This document shows positions 31,401 to 45,770 of a stretch of 64,000 nt of DNA, one piece after another. The DNA is taken from positions 1 through 64,000 of the forward strand of contig CAIQOO010000153.1 of assembly GCA_903873485.1 (NCBI GenBank), in the 5' to 3' direction. Below the pieces are notes generated by a model. The model saw nothing but the letters and a program-made list of their open reading frames with translations. It did not search any database and was not told the origin of the DNA. Each line of letters opens with the position of its first letter. Within the stretch, counting starts at the first letter, position 1. The position numbers were made by a program, and so were the translations under genes. This stretch comes from an uncultured beta proteobacterium (lineage in GTDB: Bacteria; Pseudomonadota; Gammaproteobacteria; Burkholderiales; Burkholderiaceae_C).

Positions 31401-32843
31401 ATGAAGCTCACGCTGACCCATGACGAAATGAGCGCTTACTGCGCCGAACTGCATGAAGCCAATGCAGTTTTCAAGTCCGACTATCCAGCCGACTCCTTCG
31501 AGCGGCAGCCAGTGCATACGGTGTATGGCGGCGCCAATCTGTTCAAGGCCGGGTTTGCCCCCAAGCTGGGGGAGGTGGCACTCAAGACACTTGAAACCTA
31601 TGCACCCAGCTTTAGCGTTTTTGCCAAGGTTTTGGGCCTGCCACGCGCTGAAATGCTGCCGACCAATCCTTTCGAGCTGGGCAGCCTGACGCGTGCGCTG
31701 GAAGCCAATCCCGAGCAGGTGCGCGAAACCAAGCCGGCGGCCTGGCTGGCTTTCACCGTCTATAACCGGGTCGTCAAAAAACTTCAGGCCGAGCCGATCG
31801 AAGACAACCGCATCGACTTTGAGGATGGCTATGGCAACCGTCCCGATGCCGAAGAAGATGCCCATGCGGTGGCAGCGGCCGATGAAGTGGCCAAAGGCAT
31901 GGCTGAAAACCTGCTGTCGCCCTTTATCGGCATCCGGGTCAAGACCTTCTCTGACGAATGCAAGGTACGTTCAATTCGCACGCTGGATATTTTCCTGACC
32001 CGGCTGGCTGAGAAAACCGGCAGCAAGCTGCCAAAAAACTTTATCGTGACGCTGCCCAAGGTCACCATACCGACACAGGTTTCAACCTTTGTCAAAATTC
32101 TCGAAAATCTTGAGGCCCGGTTGGGCTTTGCCAAAGATTCGCTGAAGATGGAAATCATGATCGAGACCACCCAGTCGATCATCAACCACAGGGGCGAAAA
32201 CACGGTTCCGCTGTTGGTGGCTGCGGCCGGTGGCCGCTGCCGCTCGGCGATTTTCGGCACCTACGACTACACCGCCTCCTGCAACATCACGGCCGCCCAT
32301 CAGACTCATACCCATCCGGCCTGCGATTTTGCCCGCCACGTTCTGCAAGTCAGTCTGGCCGGCACCGGCATCACCATCAGCGATGGGGCCACCACCAGCA
32401 TGCCGATCGGGCCACACAAGGCCCCCAAGGACGGTGTGCTGACGGCCCAGCAGATGGACGAAAACCGCTCGGTGGTGCATGGTGCCTGGAAACTTCACTA
32501 TGACAACATCATGCACTCCCTGCGCCACGGTTACTACCAGGGCTGGGACTTGAATCCGGGCCAGTTGCCAGTGCGCTATGCGGCAATGGATGCGTTCTTC
32601 CTCAGCGGGCTGCAAGATGCCTCGGCCCGGCTCAACGCTTTCCTGAACAAGGCCGCGCAGGCCACGCTGGTGGGCAATACCTTCGACGATGCCGCTACCG
32701 GCCAGGGCCTGCTGAACTTCTTCTTGCGCGGCATGGCCTGCGGTGCCATCACCGAGCAGGAAGTTCTGGCCACCGGCATCACACTCGACGAATTGCGCTC
32801 TCGTTCCTTTGTTCGCATTGTCAACAATCGCACCAGCAAATAA
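31401..32843 (+). CDS. CitE-superfamily lyase, candidate beta-methylmalyl-CoA lyase
   Basis: Protein of 480 residues from the HpcH/HpaI-CitE aldolase superfamily, in the group often labelled aldolase/citrate lyase or DUF6986. Visible superfamily features: RIDFEDGYGNRPDAEEDAHA (acidic metal and substrate loop, about residues 137-156), an Arg in FIGIRVKTFSDEC (about 176), IMIETTQSIINHRGE with the metal Glu (about 252), and SAIFGTYDYTASC (about 281). It is much longer than Mcl1-type malyl-CoA lyases (about 320 residues). As first gene of a cluster encoding every neighbouring step, it is the best candidate to cleave beta-methylmalyl-CoA to glyoxylate and propionyl-CoA; this is inference from context. 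The ATG has a CGGAGA site. Confidence 0.7.
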   Translation: MKLTLTHDEMSAYCAELHEANAVFKSDYPADSFERQPVHTVYGGANLFKAGFAPKLGEVALKTLETYAPSFSVFAKVLGLPRAEMLPTNPFELGSLTRALEANPEQVRETKPAAWLAFTVYNRVVKKLQAEPIEDNRIDFEDGYGNRPDAEEDAHAVAAADEVAKGMAENLLSPFIGIRVKTFSDECKVRSIRTLDIFLTRLAEKTGSKLPKNFIVTLPKVTIPTQVSTFVKILENLEARLGFAKDSLKMEIMIETTQSIINHRGENTVPLLVAAAGGRCRSAIFGTYDYTASCNITAAHQTHTHPACDFARHVLQVSLAGTGITISDGATTSMPIGPHKAPKDGVLTAQQMDENRSVVHGAWKLHYDNIMHSLRHGYYQGWDLNPGQLPVRYAAMDAFFLSGLQDASARLNAFLNKAAQATLVGNTFDDAATGQGLLNFFLRGMACGAITEQEVLATGITLDELRSRSFVRIVNNRTSK

Positions 32844-32875
32844 TGGCCGCTCGGCCCATAAGAAAGTGATAGACC

Positions 32876-34555
32876 ATGAGTGATGTCAACAGCCGGATGC
32901 AGGCTGCGTCGCAATATCTCGACGTAGCCGATGCACAAATCAAAAAATCCTTGCTCTGGATAAAGCAGCAATGCCTTGGCGGCAAGGGCGTGTCGGGCGA
33001 GAAGCTTGACGGTCATCAAATGGCCAGTTTCGATCTGGCCTGGTGTGCCGCCGAAGCCACCACGGCGCGTTTTGCGGTGGACTATGCACGCAAGGCCGTT
33101 GCTGCCAGCGAGACACCCGGCGATGCCATCTGCCTTGAAGAGCAAATGACCCTGGTTTTTTGCGCCGAAGCCCTGCAAAACATTCGCAACCGTTTATCGG
33201 CCCGACCGCAGAGTTTTGGCTTGGGCGAAGACGACATTGCGCTGCTCGATGCAGCCGCCCTCACCCGCTTTTGCCGCGCGCAGCTTGATGCGGGCAATCT
33301 GGAGGCGCTCGGTCGGCAAGTGATTGCCATGGATGGTGCCAGCGGGGCCTATCTGCTTGGCGAAGATGCCTTGATGATGCAGGAGTCGTTCCGCAAGCTG
33401 GCCACCCATGTGGTGATGCCCCTGGCCGAAGAAATTCACCGCAAGGACAAGATCATTCCAAAAGAGATTTTGGTGCCGTTGACCGAAATGGGCTGCTTTG
33501 GGCTGTCGATTCCAGAGCGTTACGGCGGCATCCAGAGCGACGATCACGAAGACAACATGGGCATGATCGTGGTGACCGAAGAGCTTTCTCGCGGGTCACT
33601 TGGCGGAGCAGGCAGCCTGATTACCCGGCCTGAAATCCTCAGCCGCGCCCTGCAAAAGGGCGGCACCGAGGCGCAGCGGCAAAAGTGGCTGCCGCAAGTA
33701 GCCATGGGCCATCCGCTGTGTGCCATCGCCGTCACCGAACCCGATACCGGCTCGGATGTTGCAGCCATTCGGCTCAAGGCAACCAAGTGCGAAGGTGGCT
33801 GGCATCTCGATGGTGTCAAGACCTGGTGCACCATGGCCGGCAAGGCTGGCCTGCTGCTGGTGCTGGCGCGCTCCAACCCGGATCGTGCAGCGGCCCACAA
33901 GGGTCTGAGCATGTTCCTGGTCGAAAAAGACTCCTACGAGGGTCATGATTTTGAATTCCGCCAACCACATGGCGGTGTTTTGACAGGTCGTGCCATCGCC
34001 ACCATTGGCTACCGTGGCATGCATTCTTACGAGTTGTTCTTCGACCATATTTTTGTCCCTGATGAGAACCTGGTAGGCGGGCCAGAGGGCGAAGGCAAGG
34101 GCTTTTATTCCACCATGGCTGGCTTTGCTGGCGGGCGCATTCAGACTGCAGCACGCGCCATTGGTGTCATGCAAGCCGCGTTCGAGCGGGCGGTTCTATA
34201 CGCCATTGACCGCAAGGTATTTGGCAAAGCGATTGGCGAGTACCAACTGACACTGGTCAAGCTGGCTCGCATGGCAACCCTGCTGACAGTGTCGCGCCAG
34301 TTCACTTATGCCGTTGGTCGTTTGATGGATCAGGGTGAAGGTCAGATGGAAGCCAGCATGGTGAAACTGTTCACCTGCCGCACGGCTGAGTGGCTGACCC
34401 GCGAGGCGCTGCAAATTCATGGCGGCATGGGCTACGCCGAGGAGTCACCGGTCAGTCGCTATTTTGTCGATGCGCGTGTGCTGTCGATTTTTGAAGGGGC
34501 CGAAGAAACGCTGGCCCTGAAGGTGATCGCACGTTCCCTCATTGATGCCGCCTAG
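32876..34555 (+). CDS. mcd: (2S)-methylsuccinyl-CoA dehydrogenase
   Basis: Acyl-CoA dehydrogenase of 559 residues. The length is diagnostic: ordinary acyl-CoA dehydrogenases have about 380-400, while Mcd has an extra N-terminal helical domain of about 150 residues (here MSDVNSRMQAASQYLDVADA onwards). The core shows CAIAVTEPDTGSDVAAIRLK (FAD-binding, about 280-300), HLDGVKTWCTMAGKAGLLLV, and LQIHGGMGYAEESPVSRYF with the catalytic acid segment RVLSIFEGAEETLALKVIAR near the end. It oxidises (2S)-methylsuccinyl-CoA to mesaconyl-CoA, passing electrons to ETF. It lies between the lyase and mesaconyl-CoA hydratase genes, confirming the pathway. Confidence 0.93.
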   Translation: MSDVNSRMQAASQYLDVADAQIKKSLLWIKQQCLGGKGVSGEKLDGHQMASFDLAWCAAEATTARFAVDYARKAVAASETPGDAICLEEQMTLVFCAEALQNIRNRLSARPQSFGLGEDDIALLDAAALTRFCRAQLDAGNLEALGRQVIAMDGASGAYLLGEDALMMQESFRKLATHVVMPLAEEIHRKDKIIPKEILVPLTEMGCFGLSIPERYGGIQSDDHEDNMGMIVVTEELSRGSLGGAGSLITRPEILSRALQKGGTEAQRQKWLPQVAMGHPLCAIAVTEPDTGSDVAAIRLKATKCEGGWHLDGVKTWCTMAGKAGLLLVLARSNPDRAAAHKGLSMFLVEKDSYEGHDFEFRQPHGGVLTGRAIATIGYRGMHSYELFFDHIFVPDENLVGGPEGEGKGFYSTMAGFAGGRIQTAARAIGVMQAAFERAVLYAIDRKVFGKAIGEYQLTLVKLARMATLLTVSRQFTYAVGRLMDQGEGQMEASMVKLFTCRTAEWLTREALQIHGGMGYAEESPVSRYFVDARVLSIFEGAEETLALKVIARSLIDAA

Positions 34556-34602
34556 CGTCAGTTTCAGTCAGACCCACTGTCAAGCTCAAAGGAATATATC
34601 CC

Positions 34603-35784
34603 ATGTCGCAGGCAATTCGTTTTCAAGCACAGGCTGAACTGGCCGAAAAAGTGAAGGTGGAGGCTCCAAGAGTCCGCTATCCGCACTATGGCCGCTATTT
34701 GGAGGAATTTGTGCCCGGGCAAGTGTTTGTCCACCCCCGTGGTTTCACCTTCCTCCCGGCCCAGATAGAAGCGTTTGCCCGCACCTACATGCAGTGCAAT
34801 CCGCTCTACCTCAATAACCAATACGCCCGGGCCTGTGGCTTTGATGGACTGTTGGCTTCACCGCAGATGGTTTTCAACGTCGTTCTGTCGCTCGGCGTGC
34901 AAAACGACTCCGAAAAGGCGATGGCCAATCTTGGCTACTACGATGCCCAGTATTTGCGGCCAGTCTATGCAGCAGATACCATCCGCTCCCTGACCAAGGT
35001 GATGGATCGCAAGGAACGCGGTGGCGACAAGCCAGGCATCGTGACCATTCGCACCTTGGGGCTTAACCAGAACGACGAGGTGGTGCTGCAGTACGAGCGC
35101 AAAATCATGGTCGCCGGGCAAGGCAGCCGCCCGCCCACCACGCCCTTGCCAAGCTCTACCGTGATGCCGGCCTTCCCTTGGGTTGAACATGCCGAAGTGT
35201 TTCTGCCGAGCTTCCCTGAGCAAATCCCCTCCGGGCTGACCGGCCCCAACTCCTGGTTCGAGGATTTTGTCGTCGGCGACATCATCATCCATGCCAACGG
35301 CAGAACCATCACCGACGAGCATCTGGCGTTGACCTATGCGGTGGGCAACACCCACCCGCTGCATTTCGACCGGGTTTTCAGTTCCGGCCTGTCGGGCAAG
35401 ATGAGCGGCGATCCGATTGTTTATGGCGGGCTAGTTTTTGCCTGGCTCGAAGGCCTGGCCAGTCGCGATGTCAGCGAAAACAGCGTCTGGGAAATCGGTT
35501 TTACCGAGGGTTATCACACCCAGCCGTCGATTGCCGGCGATACCGTTGCCGCCTTGTCGCGCGTACTGGCAGTCGAAGATGCCCCCAGCGCACTCGGTGC
35601 TGCCTTTGGCATCGTGAATTTTCAGTTGATTGGCGTCAAGAACATCAGTGCATCGAACGCCTATGCCAAATATGGTGCGGACTTGTTCATCAAGGAAAAC
35701 GACAAGAAGGCCATCGGCAAAGAGAAAATAGACGAGAAGATTTTCGAAATCGAGCGCCAGCTCGTCATCCGCAAGAGGAGCTAA
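34603..35784 (+). CDS. mch: Mesaconyl-CoA hydratase (double MaoC fold)
   Basis: Hydrates mesaconyl-CoA to beta-methylmalyl-CoA. The 393 residues contain two MaoC-like hot-dog domains: the first (about 30-185) with AFARTYMQCNPLYLNNQYAR and GLLASPQMVFNVVLSLGVQN; the second (about 215-380) with FEDFVVGDIIIHANGRTITD, LTYAVGNTHPLHFDRVFSS and GDPIVYGGLVFAWLEGLASR. It is about 50 residues longer than the Rhodobacter enzyme. An AAAGGAA site precedes the ATG. The gene is followed by ecm after 2 bases, so the two are coupled. Confidence 0.92.
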   Translation: MSQAIRFQAQAELAEKVKVEAPRVRYPHYGRYLEEFVPGQVFVHPRGFTFLPAQIEAFARTYMQCNPLYLNNQYARACGFDGLLASPQMVFNVVLSLGVQNDSEKAMANLGYYDAQYLRPVYAADTIRSLTKVMDRKERGGDKPGIVTIRTLGLNQNDEVVLQYERKIMVAGQGSRPPTTPLPSSTVMPAFPWVEHAEVFLPSFPEQIPSGLTGPNSWFEDFVVGDIIIHANGRTITDEHLALTYAVGNTHPLHFDRVFSSGLSGKMSGDPIVYGGLVFAWLEGLASRDVSENSVWEIGFTEGYHTQPSIAGDTVAALSRVLAVEDAPSALGAAFGIVNFQLIGVKNISASNAYAKYGADLFIKENDKKAIGKEKIDEKIFEIERQLVIRKRS

Positions 35785-35786
35785 TC

Positions 35787-37805
35787 ATGGCAACCACCCA
35801 GAAAAAAAAGGATCAACCCTGGTTGATGCGGACCTACAGCGGTCACAGCTCGGCCAAGGCCTCCAATGCGCTTTACCTCACCAACTTGGCCAAGGGCCAG
35901 ACCGGTTTGTCCGTCGCCTTCGATCTGCCAACGCAGACTGGCTACGACGCCGACAATCCGCTGGCCCGGGGCGAAGTTGGCAAGGTCGGCGTGCCGGTAT
36001 CGCATATCGAGGACATGGATCAGTTGTTTGACCAGATTCCGCTCGACAAGATGAACACCTCAATGACGATCAATGCCACGGCACCTTGGTTGCTGGCGTT
36101 GTACATCGGCTTGGCGCAGCGGCGCGGTATTGACCCAAAGATGTTGAGCGGCACCACGCAGAACGACATCATCAAGGAATACCTCTCGCGCGGCACCTAT
36201 ATTTACCCGCCCGGCCCGTCAATGCGCTTGATCGCTGACACGATCAATTACACCGTCAAACATGTGCCAAAGTGGAACCCGACCAACATCTGCAGCTACC
36301 ATTTGCAGGAAGCCGGAGCCACTCCGGTTCAAGAGTTGGCTTATGCCTTGTGCGCCGCCATGGCGGTGCTGGACCGGGTCAAGGCGTCCGGCGAGATCGA
36401 AGCCGCTGCCTTCCCGCAGGTGGTCGAACGCATTTCGTTTTTTGTCAATGCTGGCATCCGCTTTGTTGAAGAATGCTGCAAGCTCAGGGCTTTCGGCCAG
36501 ATGTGGGACGAGTTGACCCTGGCCCGCTACCAGGTTGACGATCCAAAGCTGCGCCGCTTCCGCTACGGCGTTCAGGTCAACTCTTTGGGGCTGACCGAGG
36601 CACAGCCAGAAAACAATGTGCAGCGCATTGTGCTTGAAATGTTGTCGGTGGTGCTCTCCAAAGGTTCCAGAGCACGCGCCATCCAGCTTCCGGCCTGGAA
36701 CGAGGCCATGGGCCTGCCGCGCCCCTGGGATCAGCAATGGGCATTGCGAATTCAGCAGGTGATGGCGTTAGAGACCGATTTGCTGGAGTACGGCGACATT
36801 CTGGACGGCTCCCCCGTCATTGCGGCCAAGGTGGCCGAACTGATTGAAGGTGCCAACAAAGAAATTGCGAATGTCGAGGCCCAGGGCGGGATCATTGCCG
36901 CCATCGAATCCGGCTACATCAAGCGTGAACTGGTCGGCAGCCACATGAACCGCTTGCGCGCCATCGAGTCGGGCGACCTGAAAATCATTGGGGTCAACTG
37001 CTTCCAGGAAACCGCCCAGTCGCCACTTACCTTGGGCAGCGATGGCGGCATCATGAAAGCCGACCCGGCAGCCGAGCGCGAGCAAATCGAACGTCTCCAG
37101 GCGCATCGCAACCAGCGCGACAACGCAGAAGTCCGCGCCGCCCTGCAAGGCCTCACCGATGCCGCCAACAGCGGCGAAAACATTATGCCGAGTTCGATCC
37201 GCTGCGCCCTTGCAGGTGTCACCACCGGCGAATGGGGTGACACGCTGCGTGCAGTTTTTGGCGAATTCAGGCCACCGACGGGCATCGATATTGCCATCGA
37301 CAGCCGCGTGGTCCTTGGCAAGATGGATCAAGTGACCGATCTCAGAGCCAGAGTGACCAGCACCGGCACTGCGTTGGGCCGCCCCTTGAAGCTGCTGGTC
37401 GGCAAGCCCGGGCTGGACGGGCATTCCAACGGTGCCGAGCAAGTGGCAGTCAAAGCCCGGGATGTCGGCTTCGAGGTCGTTTATGACGGCATCCGTCTCA
37501 CGCCGCAGCAGATTGCCCAGGCGGCACAAGAAGAAGGCGTGCACATGGTCGGCCTGTCGATCCTGTCGGGCAGCCACATGCAACTGGTCGAGTCGGTTTT
37601 GCAGGAAATGCGTCTGCGCGATCTGACCCATGTGCCGGTGATCGCCGGCGGCATCATCCCACCCGAAGATGCTGAAAAACTCAAGACATTGGGCGTTCGC
37701 GCCATTTACACGCCCAAGGATTTCAGCCTGAATGCCATCATGGCGGATATGGTTGATGTGGTTCGTGAATGCAACGGACTTGACCGGCTTGGACTACTTC
37801 AGTAG
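35787..37805 (+). CDS. ecm: Ethylmalonyl-CoA mutase
   Basis: Coenzyme-B12 mutase of 672 residues that converts ethylmalonyl-CoA to methylsuccinyl-CoA. The N-terminal TIM barrel shows PWLMRTYSGHSSAKASNALY (about residues 11-30), FDLPTQTGYDADNPLARGEV and SMTINATAPWLLALYIG; the C-terminal B12-binding domain has the cobalt-ligand His in KPGLDGHSNGAEQVAVKARD (about 533-552) and GLSILSGSHMQLV. The GH-S-x-A sequence near the N-terminus, the compact single-chain form and the extent of similarity to Rhodobacter Ecm separate it from methylmalonyl-CoA mutase. A GAGGAG site overlaps the end of mch. meaB follows at once. Confidence 0.95.
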   Translation: MATTQKKKDQPWLMRTYSGHSSAKASNALYLTNLAKGQTGLSVAFDLPTQTGYDADNPLARGEVGKVGVPVSHIEDMDQLFDQIPLDKMNTSMTINATAPWLLALYIGLAQRRGIDPKMLSGTTQNDIIKEYLSRGTYIYPPGPSMRLIADTINYTVKHVPKWNPTNICSYHLQEAGATPVQELAYALCAAMAVLDRVKASGEIEAAAFPQVVERISFFVNAGIRFVEECCKLRAFGQMWDELTLARYQVDDPKLRRFRYGVQVNSLGLTEAQPENNVQRIVLEMLSVVLSKGSRARAIQLPAWNEAMGLPRPWDQQWALRIQQVMALETDLLEYGDILDGSPVIAAKVAELIEGANKEIANVEAQGGIIAAIESGYIKRELVGSHMNRLRAIESGDLKIIGVNCFQETAQSPLTLGSDGGIMKADPAAEREQIERLQAHRNQRDNAEVRAALQGLTDAANSGENIMPSSIRCALAGVTTGEWGDTLRAVFGEFRPPTGIDIAIDSRVVLGKMDQVTDLRARVTSTGTALGRPLKLLVGKPGLDGHSNGAEQVAVKARDVGFEVVYDGIRLTPQQIAQAAQEEGVHMVGLSILSGSHMQLVESVLQEMRLRDLTHVPVIAGGIIPPEDAEKLKTLGVRAIYTPKDFSLNAIMADMVDVVRECNGLDRLGLLQ

Positions 37806-37813
37806 CCCGCAAA

Positions 37814-38863
37814 ATGCGCCAAGCGGACCTGCCCGATCCCGACCAGTTGGCCTTGCGGATACAGCGCGGGGAACGGGCGGCAGTCGCTGGCGGCTTGAAT
37901 CTGCTGGACAACAAACTGCCCGACGCACGTCGGCGCGCCGCCCGGCTGCTGGCCTTGCTTTCTGCAGAGCGACGGCTCAATAACGGTCATCTCATCGGAG
38001 TCACCGGCCCGCCCGGCACCGGCAAATCTACGCTGGTCTGCGCCATGATTCGGGAGTGGCGGCGCGTTGGCAAGACCGTGGGCGTGCTTGCTGTCGATCC
38101 GTCGAGTCGTCCAGAATTGGGCGGCGGTGCCCTGCTGGGGGATCGCATCCGCATCAAGAATGTCTCCTATGACGAAGGGCTATTCATCCGCTCGCTGGCC
38201 AATCGCAACCAGTTGGGCGGTGTCGCCACCGAAGTCTGGCCGATGAGCTGGCTGATGCTGGCCTGCTTTGACATCGTGGTGATCGAGACCGTGGGTGTCG
38301 GTCAGACCGAAATCGACATAGCCGAGGTGGCCGACACCGTCTGCTATGTGGCGCAACCGGCTTCGGGCGATGCCATCCAGTATCTAAAGTCGGGGATTAT
38401 CGAAATCCCCGATGTGTTCGCCGTCAACAAGTCCGATCTCGGTGCTCCGGCCCAAAAAACAGCCGCCGAAATTGGCCGCAGTGCGCCCCGGCAAGATCGC
38501 CACGAAGAATGGGATTACCCGGTCTGCCTGGTGAGTGCCGCGATGAATACCGGCATCAAGCCATTGCTCGACCATATCAAGCGGCACCGCAGCTTTGTCG
38601 CAGAGGCCGGCTTGCTCGACAAATTGCGCAGCCGCCATCATGCAGCCTGGGTGATGCGCCTGCTAAAAGAAGAATTTGGCACCTTTGGCCTGGAACTTGT
38701 TGGCGGCATGGCCGCTGTCAGCGAACGCCTGGTTCAGCATCAAACCCCGCATTTCGAAGAATACGAACATCTGCGACAGCGTGTTCTTTCCAGATTCCAG
38801 TCGGAAAAACAGTTCAGTAAATTTACCAAAAAGGAGCATTCTGATGAGCAAGCAACTGTATGA
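37814..38863 (+). CDS. meaB: MeaB/ArgK-type GTPase, mutase chaperone
   Basis: G3E-family GTPase of 349 residues that protects or reloads B12-dependent acyl-CoA mutases. The P-loop is [20 protein letters not shown] (about residues 61-80), with [20 protein letters not shown] (switch region), [20 protein letters not shown] (Walker B, about 155-174) and the base-specificity motif [13 protein letters not shown]. Location directly after ecm suggests it serves this mutase. The end overlaps the start of ccr by 20 bases, and the ccr ribosome-binding site lies inside the meaB reading frame. The C-terminal tail ([14 protein letters not shown]) is poorly conserved, as expected for such an overlap. Confidence 0.92.
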
Positions 38864-40598
38864 AGTAGGCGAACAACCCCCTCTGGGCCTGGTTCCGGAG
38901 AAAATGCACGCATGGCTGATCCGGCCAGAGCGCTTTGGCAAGCCAACCGATGCGTTTCAAAAAGAAGTGGTGGACACCCCGAGCATTGCCGACGACGAGG
39001 TGCTGGTGTATGTGATGGCAGCCGGCATCAACTACAACAACGTCTGGGCGGCACTGGGCATCCCGGTGAATGTGATCGCCGCCCGCAACAAGAACGGCGA
39101 GCCTGAGCCGTTTCACATCGGCGGCAGCGATGCTTCCGGCATTGTCTATAAAGTCGGCAAGGATGTGACCAACGTCAAAGTAGGCGACGAAGTCGTGATG
39201 CACTGTGGCACTTTTAATCGCAATTGCGACTGGGTCAAAGGCGGTGGCGACCCAATGTACTCGCCGTCATTCAAAATTTGGGGCTATGAGACCAACTTTG
39301 GCAGTTTTGCGCAGTTCACCCGGGTGCAAGGACAGCAGTGCATGCCCAAGCCCAAACACATGAACTGGGAAGAAGCAGCCTCCTACGCGCTGGTCGCGGC
39401 GACCGCCTGGCGGATGTTGCATGGCTGGGAATCGAGTTCCATTAAAAAAGGCGATGTGGCCTTGATCTGGGGCGGTGCCGGTGGTCTGGGTTCGATGGCA
39501 ATTCAGATTGCCAAGGCGGTCGGTGCGACCTCGGTAGCCATGGTGTCAGGCCAGGACAAGTTTGATTACTGCATGAAGCTGGGTGCCAAAGGCTGCATCA
39601 ACCGCAATGATTTCGACCACTGGGGCATGTTGCCGCACTGGAAAGACAACGCGGGCTATGGCAAATGGCTCAAGGGTGTGCGCTCGTTTGGCGCAAAAAT
39701 CTGGGAAGTGCTGGGTGAAAAACGCGCCCCGAACCTGGTCTTTGAGCATCCCGGTGAAAGCACCATCCCAAGTTCAATTTTTGTCTGCGAAACCGGTGGC
39801 ATGGTGGTGGTCTGCGCTGGCACTTCCGGCTACAACGCGACGGTCGATCTGCGTTACCTGTGGATGCGCCAAAAGCGTCTGCAAGGCTCGCATTTCGCCA
39901 ATACCGTACAGTGCAACGAGATGAACCAACTGGCACTGCGGGGCGAACTTGACCCCTGCATGTCGCGTGCCTTTGTTTATGACGAATTGCCCGATGCCCA
40001 TCTGTTGATGCATGACAACAAGCACCCGCACGGCAACATGGCGGTGCTGATTGGCGCGCCCAAGTTTGGTCTGGGTGCCAGTGGAAAACCGGAGGTTGAA
40101 ATGGTGCATCCCGTGCTGCCCAAGGGCGATGTGCATACCACGCCCCATCCGTATCCGATGTCCGAACCGCTGCCCAGCATCGAGTCGGCCGAATCGATCT
40201 CCATTGTTGATGACGGCACCAAAGTACGCGACCTGATGCATGCCGGCATCATCTCCTGCACGCCAGACGATACGATTGGGTCAGTCGCCAAGATCATGGT
40301 CGACAAGGAAATCCATGCAGTGGTGGTGATGGATGATCAGGGTCAAGCCGTTGGTGTGGTGTCGCAGACCGATATGGTGCTGGCACGCCAGGGCCGCACC
40401 CCCGATCAGGCACGCTCAATGCTGGCCAGGGAAGTCATGACCCCCGGTTGCGCCACTTGCGATGCAGAACTGCTGTTGAGCGATGCGGTCAGCCTGATGA
40501 CCGGTCGACGCATGCACCGCCTGGTGGTCACCGAGAACGACAAGCCGGTCGGCGTGATCTCCATGACCGACGTGGTGCGCAAGATCATCGGCGAATAA
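38844..40598 (+). CDS. ccr: Crotonyl-CoA carboxylase/reductase fused to a CBS-domain pair
   Basis: Signature enzyme of the ethylmalonyl-CoA pathway: reductive carboxylation of crotonyl-CoA with NADPH and CO2. Residues 1 to about 430 match Ccr: [37 protein letters not shown], the nucleotide loop [40 protein letters not shown] and [20 protein letters not shown] (CO2-pocket His). Known Ccr proteins end at about 430-450, but this one continues to 584: a linker (about 432-458), then CBS1 ([20 protein letters not shown] onwards, from residue 459) and CBS2 ([12 protein letters not shown] to [16 protein letters not shown]). CBS pairs bind adenine nucleotides, so allosteric control is possible (inference). 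The ATG at 38844 has an AAGGAG site; an apparent in-frame extension into meaB is rejected. Confidence 0.93.
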
Positions 40599-40634
40599 TC
40601 AACGCCAGATCAAGCCAAGTCGGCGTTGTACTCC

Positions 40635-40709
40635 ATTCCCCCCTTGTTCACGCAATGGGGGAATTTCAACCTCTCCTTCTCGTCTTGCAAGACAGAGAAG
40701 GTTTTTTTT
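40635..40709 (+). terminator. Tandem hairpins after ccr, the second an intrinsic terminator
   Basis: First hairpin: ATTCCCCC (40635-40642) / GGGGGAAT (40657-40664), no T-run. Second: CCTTCTC-GTCTTG (40675-40687) pairs with CAAGAC-a-GAGAAGG (40688-40701), then eight T (40702-40709). The second should end much of the main operon transcript; the following two genes may have their own promoter. Confidence 0.8.
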
Positions 40710-40734
40710 CCAAGACGATCAAGATTCATTTGCC

Positions 40735-41724
40735 ATGCGCGCCATCGTCTGCCATGAACTCACCGGCCCTGCCGCCTTGCGTCTGGAGCAGGTTCCTGAT
40801 CCATGTCCCGGCCCCGGTCAGGTGCGCATTCGTGTGCGTGCCTGCGGGGTCAATTTCGCTGATAGCCTGATCACCCGTGGCCAATACCAAATGCAGCCGC
40901 AACCGCCCTTCAGTCCCGGCTTTGAAGTTGCCGGCGAGGTGCTGGAATTGGGCGCTGGCGTGGTGGGCATCGCTGTCGCAGATCGGGTGATTGCCATGAC
41001 AGCGCACGGTGGCTACGCCGAACAGGTCATCGCTGACATGAATCGCTGTGTACCGATGCCCGCCGCCATGTCATGGGAACACGGCGCGGCCTTTCCTGTG
41101 GTATTTGGCACCTCGCATATTGCCCTGTGGCATCGGGCACGCTTACGCTCTGGTGAAACATTGGTGGTGCATGGTGCATCCGGTGGTGTCGGATTGACGG
41201 CTGTCGCGATTGGCAAGCAATTGGGTGCCACGGTCATCGCCACGGCCAATGGCCCGGAAAAGCTGCAAGTCGCCCGGGCACACGGTGCCGATCATTTGAT
41301 TGATGCCCGCCAAGAAGATGTGCGGGTGCGGATCAAGGCGTTAACCGATGGTCGCGGTGCCGATGTAATCTACGATCCGGTGGGCGGAGACATGTTCACG
41401 GCTTCGCTGCGCAGCATCGCTTTTGAGGGGCGCATCCTGGTCATCGGATTTGCCGGTGGTACCGTGCCGCAGATTCCGGCCAACCATCTGCTGGTCAAGA
41501 ATGTCGATGTGATCGGTGTCAACTGGCCGGCTTACGCTCAATTGAATCCCAAAGTGATGACCGAGAGTTTCCAGACACTGATTCAGTGGTATCTGGCGGG
41601 TGCCATCACACCCCATGTCTCGGCGACCTATCCGCTGGAACAGGCAGTTGAAGCCCTCAATCAAGTGTTGGCGCGCAAATCGACGGGCAAAGTCGTCATC
41701 ACAACCGAATCTGCAAACAATTAG
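40735..41724 (+). CDS. Zinc-independent NADPH:quinone oxidoreductase family protein
   Basis: MDR-superfamily enzyme of 329 residues without structural or catalytic zinc ligands. It shows VRIRVRACGVNFADSLITRG (about 25-44), PFSPGFEVAGEVLELGAGV, the NADPH loop ETLVVHGASGGVGLTAVAIG (about 140-159) and GADVIYDPVGGDMFTASLRS. Members include quinone reductases and some acrylyl- or enoyl-CoA reductases, so a part in acyl-CoA chemistry here is possible, but nothing in the sequence proves it. It lies after a terminator yet in the same direction as the pathway genes; no strong ribosome-binding site precedes the ATG. Confidence 0.82.
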   Translation: MRAIVCHELTGPAALRLEQVPDPCPGPGQVRIRVRACGVNFADSLITRGQYQMQPQPPFSPGFEVAGEVLELGAGVVGIAVADRVIAMTAHGGYAEQVIADMNRCVPMPAAMSWEHGAAFPVVFGTSHIALWHRARLRSGETLVVHGASGGVGLTAVAIGKQLGATVIATANGPEKLQVARAHGADHLIDARQEDVRVRIKALTDGRGADVIYDPVGGDMFTASLRSIAFEGRILVIGFAGGTVPQIPANHLLVKNVDVIGVNWPAYAQLNPKVMTESFQTLIQWYLAGAITPHVSATYPLEQAVEALNQVLARKSTGKVVITTESANN

Positions 41725-41802
41725 CCTGGCGCAGGCTTTGCCTGCGTCATTTTCCCAACGGCGCGGCAGACCCGCGCTTATCATCACCAAAAGGACTTTT
41801 TT

Positions 41803-42252
41803 ATGAATCCCCAAAACGGTTACGATGTTGAAGACATCACAGTCGGCATGAGCGCTGAAATCGCAAAAACGATTACCGATGCCGATATTCTCCTGTTTGC
41901 AGCGGTATCAACCGACACCAACGCAGTCCACATGGACGAAGAGTTTGGTCGCACCACTATGTTTGGCGGACGCATCGCCCACGGCATGCTATCGGCCAGC
42001 CTGATATCAGCAGTGCTGGGCAATCGCCTGCCCGGTCCTGGCACCATCTACATGAGTCAGTCACTGCGCTTTCGCGCGCCGGTGCGCCCCGGCGAGACCG
42101 TTCATGCCAAGGTCACGGTCAAGGAAGTGATTGCCGAGAAAGCCCGCGTGGTAGTCGATACCGTATGCACGGTGGGTGGCAAAGTGGTCATCGATGGTGA
42201 GGCCACGCTGATGGTCACATCAAGCAAAAAACGCGAAGCCGCACCCAAGTAA
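41803..42252 (+). CDS. (R)-specific enoyl-CoA hydratase (MaoC/PhaJ/CroR type)
   Basis: Single hot-dog MaoC hydratase of 149 residues. The hydratase-2 motif is in LFAAVSTDTNAVHMDEEFGR (about residues 32-51, with catalytic Asp and His), followed by GRIAHGMLSASLISAVLGNR and IYMSQSLRFRAPVRPGETVH. PhaJ-type enzymes interconvert (R)-3-hydroxybutyryl-CoA and crotonyl-CoA; CroR does so to feed the ethylmalonyl-CoA pathway from acetoacetyl-CoA reductase and polyhydroxybutyrate. That fits this location exactly, as crotonyl-CoA is the Ccr substrate. An AAAGGAC site precedes the ATG. Confidence 0.88.
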   Translation: MNPQNGYDVEDITVGMSAEIAKTITDADILLFAAVSTDTNAVHMDEEFGRTTMFGGRIAHGMLSASLISAVLGNRLPGPGTIYMSQSLRFRAPVRPGETVHAKVTVKEVIAEKARVVVDTVCTVGGKVVIDGEATLMVTSSKKREAAPK

Positions 42253-43259: not shown

Positions 43260-45770
43260 TTATGCAGTAGCCTCCTTGGCATCAATTCGCATGCCGTAGA
43301 AACTGCGGAACACGAACACCAGGTTGACCAGCAGGAACAGCGCCGCCAGGCCATAGACCACCGTTTGGTGCCCCTGCGCATTGAGCCCGACTGCCATTTC
43401 GACCGCCAGCAGGCCAAACAGCGTGGTGAACTTGATGATCGGATTCATCGCCACCGAGGCGGTGTCCTTGAATGGGTCGCCGACCGTGTCGCCCACCACC
43501 GAGGCATTGTGCAGGTCGGTGCCCTTGGCATGCAGTTCGGTTTCAACAATTTTCTTGGCGTTGTCCCAGGCACCACCGGCATTGGCCATGAAAACCGCCT
43601 GGTAAAGGCCGATGATGGCCAGCGAGATCAGGTAGCCGATAAAGAAAAATGGCTCGATGAAGGCACAGGCCAGGGTGCCGAAAAACACCGCCATAAAGAT
43701 GTTGATGGTGCCCTTTTGCGCATAGATGGTGCAGATCTCAACCACTTTTTTGCTGTCTTTCATGGAGGCCTTGACCACCGTGTCAAGCCGGATGTGGGTA
43801 CTGATGAACTCCACCGCCCGGTAAGCCCCGGTTGACACCGCCTGCGTGCTGGCCCCCGAGAACCAGAAAATGGTGGCCCCGCCCGATACCAGACCAAGCA
43901 GGAACGGCGGATGCAGCAGCGACAGCTTGTCAAGGTTTTCTGTCAGCCCCAACGTCAGCAACATGACGATCGAAAACACCATGGTGGTGGCCCCCACCAC
44001 GGCAGTGCCAATCAGCACCGGCTTGGCGGTGGCCTTGAAGGTGTTGCCGCAGCCGTCGTTTTCTTCGAGCAAAAACTTGGCCGCCCGAAAATCCAGATTG
44101 AAGCCAAAATCGCGCTTGACCTCGGCCTCAATGCCTGGCTCCTGCTCGATCAGCGAGAGTTCATAGACCGACTGTGCGTTGTCGGTGACCGGGCCGTAGC
44201 TGTCAACCGCAATCGTCACCGGCCCCATGCCGAGAAAGCCGAAAGCCACCAGCCCGAACGAGAACACCGCCGCCATCATCACCGCCTTGGTGTGGTCCGG
44301 ATTGATCACGGCGGTCAATTCAAACTGCGACAGGACGTAGGCACCCGACATCAGCCCGACGATGATGACCCCAATCCAGAAGGCAGAAAAGTAGCCCGCC
44401 ACCAGGCCAGACAGGATGTTGAGGCTGGCGCCGCCTGCCTTGGAAGCGGTCACCACCTCGCGCACATGGCGCGAGTGGGTCGAGGTAAAGACCTTGACGA
44501 CCTCTGGAATGATGGCCCCGGCCAGGGTGCCCAGGGTGATGATCAGCGACAGTTGCCACCACAGGTTGGTGTAGGCTGTGCCGGCCAGCGCAAAGTTGGC
44601 CATCAGCAAATAAGACACGATAAAGGTCAGGATCAGCGACACGATGGAGGTGATCCACACCAGCGAGGTCAGCGGTGCCTCGAAATTGAAACGTGGCTTG
44701 TCGGCATACAAAGCCCGTGCCAGCAGGTCGTTGCCAAAGTACGAAATGCCCGAGGCCACAATCATCATCACCCGCATGACAAACAGCCACACCAGCAATT
44801 GCACCTGCACCGCAGGCTCAGGAATAGCCAGCATGATGAAGGTGATCAGCGCCACGCCGGTGACGCCATAAGTCTCAAAACCGTCAGCCGTCGGGCCGAC
44901 CGAGTCGCCCGCGTTGTCGCCCACGCAGTCGGCAATCACGCCGGGGTTGCGGGCATCGTCTTCCTGGATGCCGAACTCGATCTTCATCAAATCCGAGCCG
45001 ATGTCGGCAATCTTGGTGAAAATGCCCCCGGCAATGCGCAGCGCCGCCGCGCCCAAAGATTCGCCAATGGCAAAACCGATGAAACACTTGCCAGCCATCG
45101 CAGGCGACACAAACAGCAGGATGCACAGCATGATCAGCAGTTCGGTCGAGATCAGCAGCATGCCAATCGAAATGCCCGATTTCATCGGAATCGCGTAAAC
45201 CGCAAACGGCTTGGCCGCCAGCGAGGCAAATGCGGTGCGACTGTTGGCCAGCGTATTGATGCGGATGCCAAACCAGGCCACGGCAAACGAGCCGGCGATG
45301 CCGACCAGCGAAAAGGCCAGAATCAGCACCACGTCGGAGGCCGGCAAATGCTGGACGAAGTAAAAATAGCCGATCATCAGCACCGCCGTGCATGCCTGCA
45401 AGATCAGCAGGAATTTGCCCTGGGTGAACATATAGGTCTTGCAAGTCTCGTAGATCAACTCGCTGACTTCGGCCATGGTGCGGTGTACCGGCAAATCGCG
45501 AATCTGGCGGTAGATCACGGCCCCGAAAATCAGGCCGGCCAGGCACACCAGCAGCCCGTAGGACAGCAGCGTGGCACCCGACATGCCGCCCAGAAACGAG
45601 ATCAGCGCGGTATCGCCCAAGTTGGGCAAAACCAGGTCAACCTCGCTGGTGTGGCCGGTGGCGGCCAGCGCCGACAGCGCGCCCGGCCCGATACTACAAA
45701 GCAATAGCAACGACAGCAGGCGCGTCATGCTGCGCCCTGCCAACTCAAGGCAAGAGTGTCTGAATCTCAT
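43260..45770 (-). CDS. hppA: Membrane-bound proton-translocating pyrophosphatase, divergent type
   Basis: Integral-membrane PPase of 836 residues with about 16 hydrophobic helices, coupling pyrophosphate hydrolysis to ion pumping. The Asp-rich core IADCVGDNAGDSVGPTADGF (about 279-298) and the C-terminal VVGDTVGDPFKDTASVAMNP are present. Two features depart from the canonical family: the substrate motif D-V-G-A-D-L-V-G-K-V-E is replaced by DIGSDLMKIEFGIQEDD (about 256-272, one residue shorter), and a Lys follows GNT in GNTFKATAKP (about 576), the mark of potassium-independent enzymes. This points to the divergent, possibly Na+-regulated H+-PPases. An AAGGAG site supports the start at 45770. 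Confidence 0.9.
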   Translation of the reverse strand: MRFRHSCLELAGRSMTRLLSLLLLCSIGPGALSALAATGHTSEVDLVLPNLGDTALISFLGGMSGATLLSYGLLVCLAGLIFGAVIYRQIRDLPVHRTMAEVSELIYETCKTYMFTQGKFLLILQACTAVLMIGYFYFVQHLPASDVVLILAFSLVGIAGSFAVAWFGIRINTLANSRTAFASLAAKPFAVYAIPMKSGISIGMLLISTELLIMLCILLFVSPAMAGKCFIGFAIGESLGAAALRIAGGIFTKIADIGSDLMKIEFGIQEDDARNPGVIADCVGDNAGDSVGPTADGFETYGVTGVALITFIMLAIPEPAVQVQLLVWLFVMRVMMIVASGISYFGNDLLARALYADKPRFNFEAPLTSLVWITSIVSLILTFIVSYLLMANFALAGTAYTNLWWQLSLIITLGTLAGAIIPEVVKVFTSTHSRHVREVVTASKAGGASLNILSGLVAGYFSAFWIGVIIVGLMSGAYVLSQFELTAVINPDHTKAVMMAAVFSFGLVAFGFLGMGPVTIAVDSYGPVTDNAQSVYELSLIEQEPGIEAEVKRDFGFNLDFRAAKFLLEENDGCGNTFKATAKPVLIGTAVVGATTMVFSIVMLLTLGLTENLDKLSLLHPPFLLGLVSGGATIFWFSGASTQAVSTGAYRAVEFISTHIRLDTVVKASMKDSKKVVEICTIYAQKGTINIFMAVFFGTLACAFIEPFFFIGYLISLAIIGLYQAVFMANAGGAWDNAKKIVETELHAKGTDLHNASVVGDTVGDPFKDTASVAMNPIIKFTTLFGLLAVEMAVGLNAQGHQTVVYGLAALFLLVNLVFVFRSFYGMRIDAKEATA

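Follow-up and report, generated by a model that had tools for sequence, protein, structure and literature searches.

Crotonyl-CoA carboxylase/reductase (Ccr) catalyzes the first committed reaction of the ethylmalonyl-CoA pathway and belongs to a class that is described in the available part of PMC12632816 as the fastest CO2 fixers. In the 64,000-nucleotide stretch of DNA from an uncultured beta proteobacterium that we analyzed (hereafter, the window), the gene for this enzyme runs on in frame into a pair of CBS domains. The locus therefore raises the question of whether this tail is genuine and, if so, what it does for the enzyme to which it is attached.

A Ccr gene with a C-terminal CBS pair

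The Ccr-CBS gene is the sixth of eight genes that follow one another in an operon spanning 31401 to 42252, from a DUF6986 gene at the head to a MaoC-like gene at the end. Its reading frame begins with ATG and ends with TAA, comprising 584 codons and zero internal stops, and an AAAGGAG site lies upstream of the start codon at 38830-38836. The features of the operon and of the fusion gene are as follows.

31401..32843, +, DUF6986 protein, HpcH/HpaI-like aldolase (PF22484, 586 bits; weak HpcH/HpaI match)
32876..34555, +, acyl-CoA dehydrogenase, probably methylsuccinyl-CoA dehydrogenase (Mcd) from its context (PF00441, PF02771, PF02770)
34603..35784, +, mesaconyl-CoA hydratase (Mch) (PF19315, 69.2 bits, cut-off 26.5)
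35787..37805, +, B12-dependent, ethylmalonyl-CoA mutase-like protein (Ecm), by operon context (PF01642, PF02310)
37814..38863, +, MeaB-type GTPase (PF03308, 228.7 bits); 20-base overlap with the Ccr start
38844..40598, +, Ccr-CBS fusion gene, single ORF, 584 aa (TIGR01751, 556.5 bits; PF00571, 86.5 bits)
38844..40079, +, Ccr catalytic core, residues 1-412 (TIGR01751 match 17-412; PDB relatives 4y0k, 9kva, 4gi2, 6na3)
40080..40214, +, linker, residues 413-457, with the motif H-x-TP-x-PYP-x-S-x-PLP at 431-444 (40134-40175)
40224..40385, +, CBS domain 1, residues 461-514 (PF00571, 50.5 bits); putative ligand motif S507-Q-T-D510, 40362-40373
40425..40589, +, CBS domain 2, residues 528-582 (PF00571, 49 bits); putative ligand motif S573-M-T-D576, 40560-40571
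40735..41724, +, quinone oxidoreductase-like (MDR) reductase (TIGR02824, 260.1 bits, under its cut-off of 296.8)
41803..42252, +, MaoC-like hydratase, probably an (R)-specific enoyl-CoA hydratase (PhaJ-like) (PF01575, 88.3 bits)

The original prediction held that this is a 584-residue Ccr with a CBS pair in the same frame and that it is longer than characterized Ccr proteins, and both statements are borne out. The protein scores 556.5 bits against TIGR01751, whose equivalog cut-off is 378.55, and Pfam places ADH_N at residues 50-171, ADH_zinc_N at 214-363, and CBS in two stretches, the best at 461-514 (E=1.4e-24); a profile search of the host genome resolves the latter into two tandem PF00571 domains, both above the 24-bit cut-off. 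Because the solved Ccr-like chains in the PDB comprise only 410-467 residues, the extra length is real. The predicted CBS limit at residue 459 (at 40218) also stands, whereas the coordinate given for its start, 40125, corresponds to residue 428 and falls within the linker.

The gene thus lies among others for enzymes of the ethylmalonyl-CoA pathway, with the names Ecm and Mcd assigned from context. The DUF6986 gene at the head of the operon occupies the expected place of malyl-CoA lyase, and its product may, judging from the operon, be a candidate for this enzyme, perhaps of an uncharacterized type; in Accumulibacter and Propionivibrio loci, the pieces that match it show 79-94% identity. Near the operon end, on the opposite strand, lies a membrane pyrophosphatase gene (43260-45770, -; NF001950, 1352 bits).

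Distribution of the fusion

To find relatives of the tail, we ran a tail-alignment scan of genome_contigs (one genome per species, 84,980 species) using two peptide patterns derived from a set of four sequences, a design that biases the result toward close relatives and makes it no census. The scan returned 48 loci, some of them from one genome (e.g., L095 and L096). The fusion occupies a single full-length frame in 42, giving 43 full-length fused genes, as L088 holds two, and the proteins of the fused loci are 65-90% identical to the window Ccr-CBS. Of the other six, L104, L107, and L112 are fragments at contig ends or partial frames, L079 and L109 are frameshifted, and L123 is not a gene. 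The L112 record, titled Synechococcaceae cyanobacterium SM1_2_3, encodes a Ccr-CBS with 82% identity over residues 76-551 in a broken frame and is probably a misbinned proteobacterial contig. The L123 match (L123:8001-8090) is a stray piece of 90 bases on a Competibacteraceae contig that resembles the Ccr-CBS linker only and lies outside any Ccr gene; it is either a remnant or an assembly error.

These loci bear on the simplest objection to the fusion, namely that a sequencing frameshift, an assembly join, or misbinning produced it. The host genome is a draft of 243 contigs, and one relative, L079, is itself split by a frameshift, but an unbroken frame is present in 42 of the 48 loci, which come from other records, and leads us to reject a frameshift or join between two genes, which the original prediction had named as grounds for abandoning it. 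Misbinning of the window contig is likewise rejected, as the carB gene on that same contig is 91-94% identical to those of three congeners. We regard an artifact of any of these kinds as virtually dismissed.

By record title, the loci comprise 12 Accumulibacter, 3 Propionivibrio, 16 Competibacteraceae (Competibacter and Contendobacter included, with L104 and L123 among the 16), 1 Defluviicoccus, 8 other Rhodospirillales or Rhodospirillaceae, 6 unclassified proteobacteria, 1 metagenome assembly, and 1 cyanobacterium. The fusion recurs in alpha-, beta-, and gammaproteobacterial lineages. Accumulibacter, Propionivibrio, Competibacteraceae, and Defluviicoccus are names associated with polyphosphate or glycogen accumulation, including in wastewater, and 32 of the 48 loci carry one of them, the trait being taken from the names alone.

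Whole-protein queries, which are free of the pattern bias of the tail scan, agree with it. Within the Competibacteraceae family of G501, at E ≤ 1e-90, 22 of 39 genomes yielded 26 matches, 23 of which are full-length fusions and three partial (residues 78-551, and 1-221 and 1-176, the last two at a contig edge); no full-length unfused Ccr occurs among the 26. In the phylum sample, 61 of 398 genomes match, and alignments extend beyond query residue 415 only in the window genome and G1056, the other 59 stopping at or before that residue. The class sample holds four matching genomes out of 369, three fused (the window genome, G501, and G631) and one unfused (G471); three match in the order sample (of 399) and three in the family sample (of 250), with the window gene the only fusion in each. 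On plasmids the fusion was absent, with 0 of 62 matching records covering 80% of the query. Outside the Competibacteraceae family of G501, then, the fusion is rare in the samples searched. We also considered whether the CBS tail is a general feature of Ccr and rejected this on the plasmid records and the 2 of 61 phylum-sample genomes that pass residue 415.

Gene neighborhoods were surveyed by tblastn with the window proteins over flanks of up to 8 kb, several of which ended at a contig edge. All eight operon genes are found in 8 of the 48 loci, every one Accumulibacter; the six genes from acyl-CoA dehydrogenase through MDR reductase are present in 15, including four Competibacteraceae; and MeaB, Ccr, and the reductase occur together in 28. 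Seven loci (L096, L099, L102, L116, L120, L121, and L122) have Ccr without other operon genes, and among these the Contendobacter/Competibacter records L096, L099, and L102 hold additional Ccr-CBS copies.

Conservation of the catalytic core and the CBS pair

Residue conservation was read from an alignment of 37 fusions, consisting of the window protein plus 36 others, taken from the 43 fused frames of full length in the scanned loci, with L082, L084, L094, L099, L100, L113, and L119 left out as near copies. In the Kitasatospora setae Ccr, we take the CO2-pocket residues to be N81, F170, E171, and H365, which in an alignment with the corresponding structure (6na3) match N65, Y148, E149, and H350 of Ccr-CBS. 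The second position is changed from Phe to Tyr, as it also is in 4gi2 and AntE (4y0k), and all four putative pocket residues are identical in 37 of 37 fusions. The entire core and the putative CO2 pocket are thus common to Ccr-CBS and these solved Ccr enzymes, from which it differs by ≈170 additional C-terminal residues that make up the conserved linker and the CBS pair. From its sequence, the catalytic part looks complete, and NADPH-dependent reductive carboxylation of crotonyl-CoA is predicted.

The tail is also conserved at its putative ligand sites. CBS domains carry a nucleotide-site motif, [ST]-x-x-[DN], and each domain of the tail has one in all 37 fusions (S507 to D510 and S573 to D576). 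In CBS domain 1, S507, T509, and D510 are invariant and the intervening Gln is present in 36 of 37; in CBS domain 2, Ser573, Met, Thr575, and Asp576 are all invariant. A pair without ligand-binding residues would have told against the original prediction, and these putative S-x-T-D motifs are intact throughout. His558-Arg559 is also invariant, as is His491-Ala492, although the latter lies within a pattern used to find the loci. The same caution applies to the linker motif H-x-TP-x-PYP-x-S-x-PLP, found in 37 of 37 with one scan pattern inside it, yet 8 of the 37 rows lack that pattern and still have the motif. One cysteine in each CBS domain, Cys472 (40257-40259) and Cys536 (40449-40451), is present in all 37 fusions and might have a redox or metal role; Cys539 is present in 33.

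Structure prediction agrees with the profile matches. An AlphaFold2 model of the tail alone (160 aa; pLDDT 84.5, pTM 0.71) matches solved CBS pairs in Foldseek, the best being 2ef7 (E=5.0e-13), and we predict with good confidence that the tail folds as a CBS pair. The 50 fold matches listed include AMP-bound AcuB, CBSX2, and SSO3205 and, by title, several CBS pairs with AMP, ADP, or ATP. The model of the whole 584-aa chain (pLDDT 59.2, pTM 0.42) was too poor for a domain interface, or any contact between linker, CBS pair, and active site, to be read from it.

Because S/T-x-x-D recurs in CBS domains that bind many ligands and different nucleotides, the motif does not single out adenylates, and the pair might be regulatory and respond instead to SAM, NAD(P)H, guanine nucleotides, dinucleotides, a CoA ester, or redox state through Cys472 and Cys536. 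The conserved cysteines fit such a signal, and the fold matches listed also include IMPDH with ATP and ppGpp or ATP and GTP, AcuB with Ap4A, a zinc-containing hypoxic response protein, and sugar-phosphate isomerase pairs. Most nucleotide-bound CBS structures among those matches nevertheless hold adenine nucleotides, a majority that also reflects what was crystallized, and we consider a signal other than adenylates unlikely. Less probable still is a structural role, in which the pair stabilizes the oligomer or docks Ecm or MeaB and takes no regulatory ligand. The oligomeric state of such enzymes is variable, tetramer or dimer, according to the accessible text of PMC12632816, and in that of PMC11172384 the CBS pairs of two subunits build four-domain modules, both of which would suit such a role; the invariance of the two putative ligand motifs in 37 of 37 fusions argues against it. 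We thus favor direct allosteric control through the CBS tail, a likely reading from sequence, with adenylates as a plausible ligand. The energy-charge control suggested in the original prediction is a more specific form of this reading and is no more than plausible.

Origin of the fusion and selection on the tail

A core-only tree was built from 75 rows (45 fused and 30 unfused), including the partial L112 and leaving out the duplicates L041, L044, L045, L047, and L068, the frameshifted L079, and the fragment L104, with L107, L109, and L123 excluded by a score cut. The fused genes form almost one clade, and the genes nearest to them are L042 and L046, which are unfused and sit on long branches. 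The tree requires two changes of fusion state, one of them forced by well-supported branches, and a single origin of the fusion appears likely. A donor of the CBS module was not found among plasmid relatives, all 209 of which are under 60% identical, the 12 listed reaching at most ≈36%.

The window gene falls beside Propionivibrio, within Accumulibacter sequences. The carB identities place the host in neither genus, as the 91-94% shared with three congeners drops to 80-81% for three Propionivibrio genomes and 77% for five Accumulibacter genomes; in the carB tree, the L101 row (wrong reading frame, length 1149, branch 10) was disregarded, and carB pieces of G372 and G471 (L150-L152) were unused. 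No Ccr over the cut-off was found in 35 congeners, several of which are drafts with gaps. A comparison of the side ahead of the operon, over stretches of 12-18 kb, shows the DNA similarity of three congeners to the window breaking off at ≈30850, just before the operon. The host probably gained the ethylmalonyl-CoA operon horizontally, which is the simplest account. The core tree also suggests a transfer from Competibacteraceae to the betaproteobacterial lineages, a direction that we do not claim because a single clade is compatible with the AU test both for Competibacteraceae (p 0.113) and for the 14 window, Accumulibacter, and Propionivibrio rows (p 0.704). In L095 and L096, the linker and CBS DNA are almost identical while the cores have diverged, which suggests gene conversion in the tail.

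Selection was gauged with a simple Nei-Gojobori count over 13 pairs. When the window gene is paired with five close relatives, dN/dS comes to 0.04-0.06 in the core (where dS, at 1.0-1.7, is near saturation), 0.07-0.10 in the CBS part, and 0.09-0.36 in the linker, the fastest part. Across the other eight pairs, it is 0.02-0.13 in the core, with one near-identical pair at 0.36; 0.08-0.20 in the CBS part of six pairs, with the remaining two, which are near-identical, giving zero or no defined value; and 0.02-0.30 or undefined in the linker. On these counts, the CBS part is under purifying selection. That the tail is a neutral passenger without effect would accord with the CBS-less Ccr being the common form (the 59 of 61 phylum-sample genomes noted above), but the low ratios in the five window pairs and ligand motifs that are invariant across three distant lineages make this very improbable.

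A proposed role in phosphate- and glycogen-storing bacteria

Published accounts of the carrier bacteria, each as far as the available portion of the paper goes, suggest where a regulated Ccr would act. In Contendobacter, the ethylmalonyl-CoA pathway is a propionyl-CoA source for PHV, and Competibacter is reported to have only five of seven genes of the pathway (PMC8956781). Accumulibacter, especially type I, transcribes its ethylmalonyl-CoA genes more at low phosphate, and the pathway is proposed to serve anaerobic redox balance, whereas type II Accumulibacter and Propionivibrio turn up the methylmalonyl-CoA pathway under that condition (PMC12604563). In Defluviicoccus, the ethylmalonyl-CoA pathway is complete in five genomes and incomplete in others, one of them without ccr (PMC9041414). 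The response of type II Accumulibacter and Propionivibrio, the gene set of Competibacter, and the Defluviicoccus genome without ccr speak against a redox-valve role.

Of 17 genomes tested for isocitrate lyase, 15 score over its cut-off, among them the host and three of its congeners, and two Rhodospirillales score below it, so acetate assimilation in the host and most tested carriers need not rest on the ethylmalonyl-CoA pathway alone. Isocitrate lyase does not thereby make Ccr dispensable for acetate, since Paracoccus denitrificans has both and uses both for this substrate (PMC6747724, part of the text). In most tested carriers, the ethylmalonyl-CoA pathway may serve as a facultative outlet for electrons and carbon, one that calls for rapid control at its entry.

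We consider it somewhat probable that the CBS pair (Bateman module) is an allosteric valve on this first committed step, with adenylates as its most likely ligands. CBS pairs from two subunits would dimerize and bind nucleotide, most likely AMP or ADP in competition with ATP, and the ligand would act by way of the conserved linker on the geometry of the oligomer or the closure of the active site. AMP can be produced when acetate is activated to acetyl-CoA. The weakest step is the sign of the response: that AMP or ADP turns Ccr on and ATP turns it off is a guess that we hold as doubtful. A cell low in polyphosphate would burn glycogen and dump reducing equivalents into CO2-fixing propionyl-CoA and PHV synthesis, and a built-in nucleotide sensor would give quick control of pathway entry. 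The broadest version of this idea, that an adenylate-gated Ccr arose once and spread with the operon among unrelated phosphate and glycogen accumulators as a valve sending surplus reducing power to propionyl-CoA and PHV when polyphosphate fails, is tentative and, taken whole, rather unlikely.

If a regulated Ccr is confirmed, it would supply a protein basis for anaerobic redox switching in phosphate- and glycogen-storing bacteria, a practical question in phosphorus removal, as well as a ready-made module for regulating synthetic CO2 fixation. The Ccr-CBS gene may also track the phosphate- or glycogen-storing lifestyle across unrelated lineages.

Comparison with known systems

The original prediction regarded the fusion as previously undescribed, and we likewise found no description of a Ccr with a CBS domain in the open-licence papers searched, which is not proof of absence. 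Within that literature, papers pairing the ethylmalonyl-CoA pathway or crotonyl-CoA with a CBS domain are unrelated by title and opening of the abstract, the pairing of CBS domain and Accumulibacter was not found, and none of the matches listed joins a CBS domain to an enoyl-CoA carboxylase. The term "CBS" is absent from the main text of PMC8956781, PMC12604563, and PMC9041414, and in three open-licence papers that mention both Ccr and the word "allosteric", such control is left for the future in one, is unconsidered in the second, and in the third surfaces as a word in the reference list only. Ccr and CBS are each known families; their union, with such a distribution, appears to be new.

Among systems with a comparable module, AcuB of Bacillus and Geobacillus, with structures containing AMP, ADP, and ATP, has a CBS pair whose fold is close to the Ccr-CBS tail model, but AcuB is a separate protein, whereas the pair in Ccr-CBS is fused to the reductase. 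IMP dehydrogenase resembles the proposed Ccr-CBS in being an oxidoreductase in which nucleotides adjust the oligomer by way of a Bateman module and differs from it in having the CBS domains inserted in a catalytic domain of unrelated fold. A further parallel is the CBS-domain family II pyrophosphatase (CBS-PPase), which, like Ccr-CBS, has one CBS pair per subunit of a metabolic enzyme. In the accessible sections of PMC11172384, AMP and ADP inhibit the tetrameric CBS-PPase and ATP activates it; its pair sits within the catalytic DHH domain, and its regulation is measured, whereas the pair of Ccr-CBS is a C-terminal tail known from sequence. By analogy, Ccr-CBS would read adenylates as CBS-PPase does, with a proposed sign that is the reverse of that in the pyrophosphatase.
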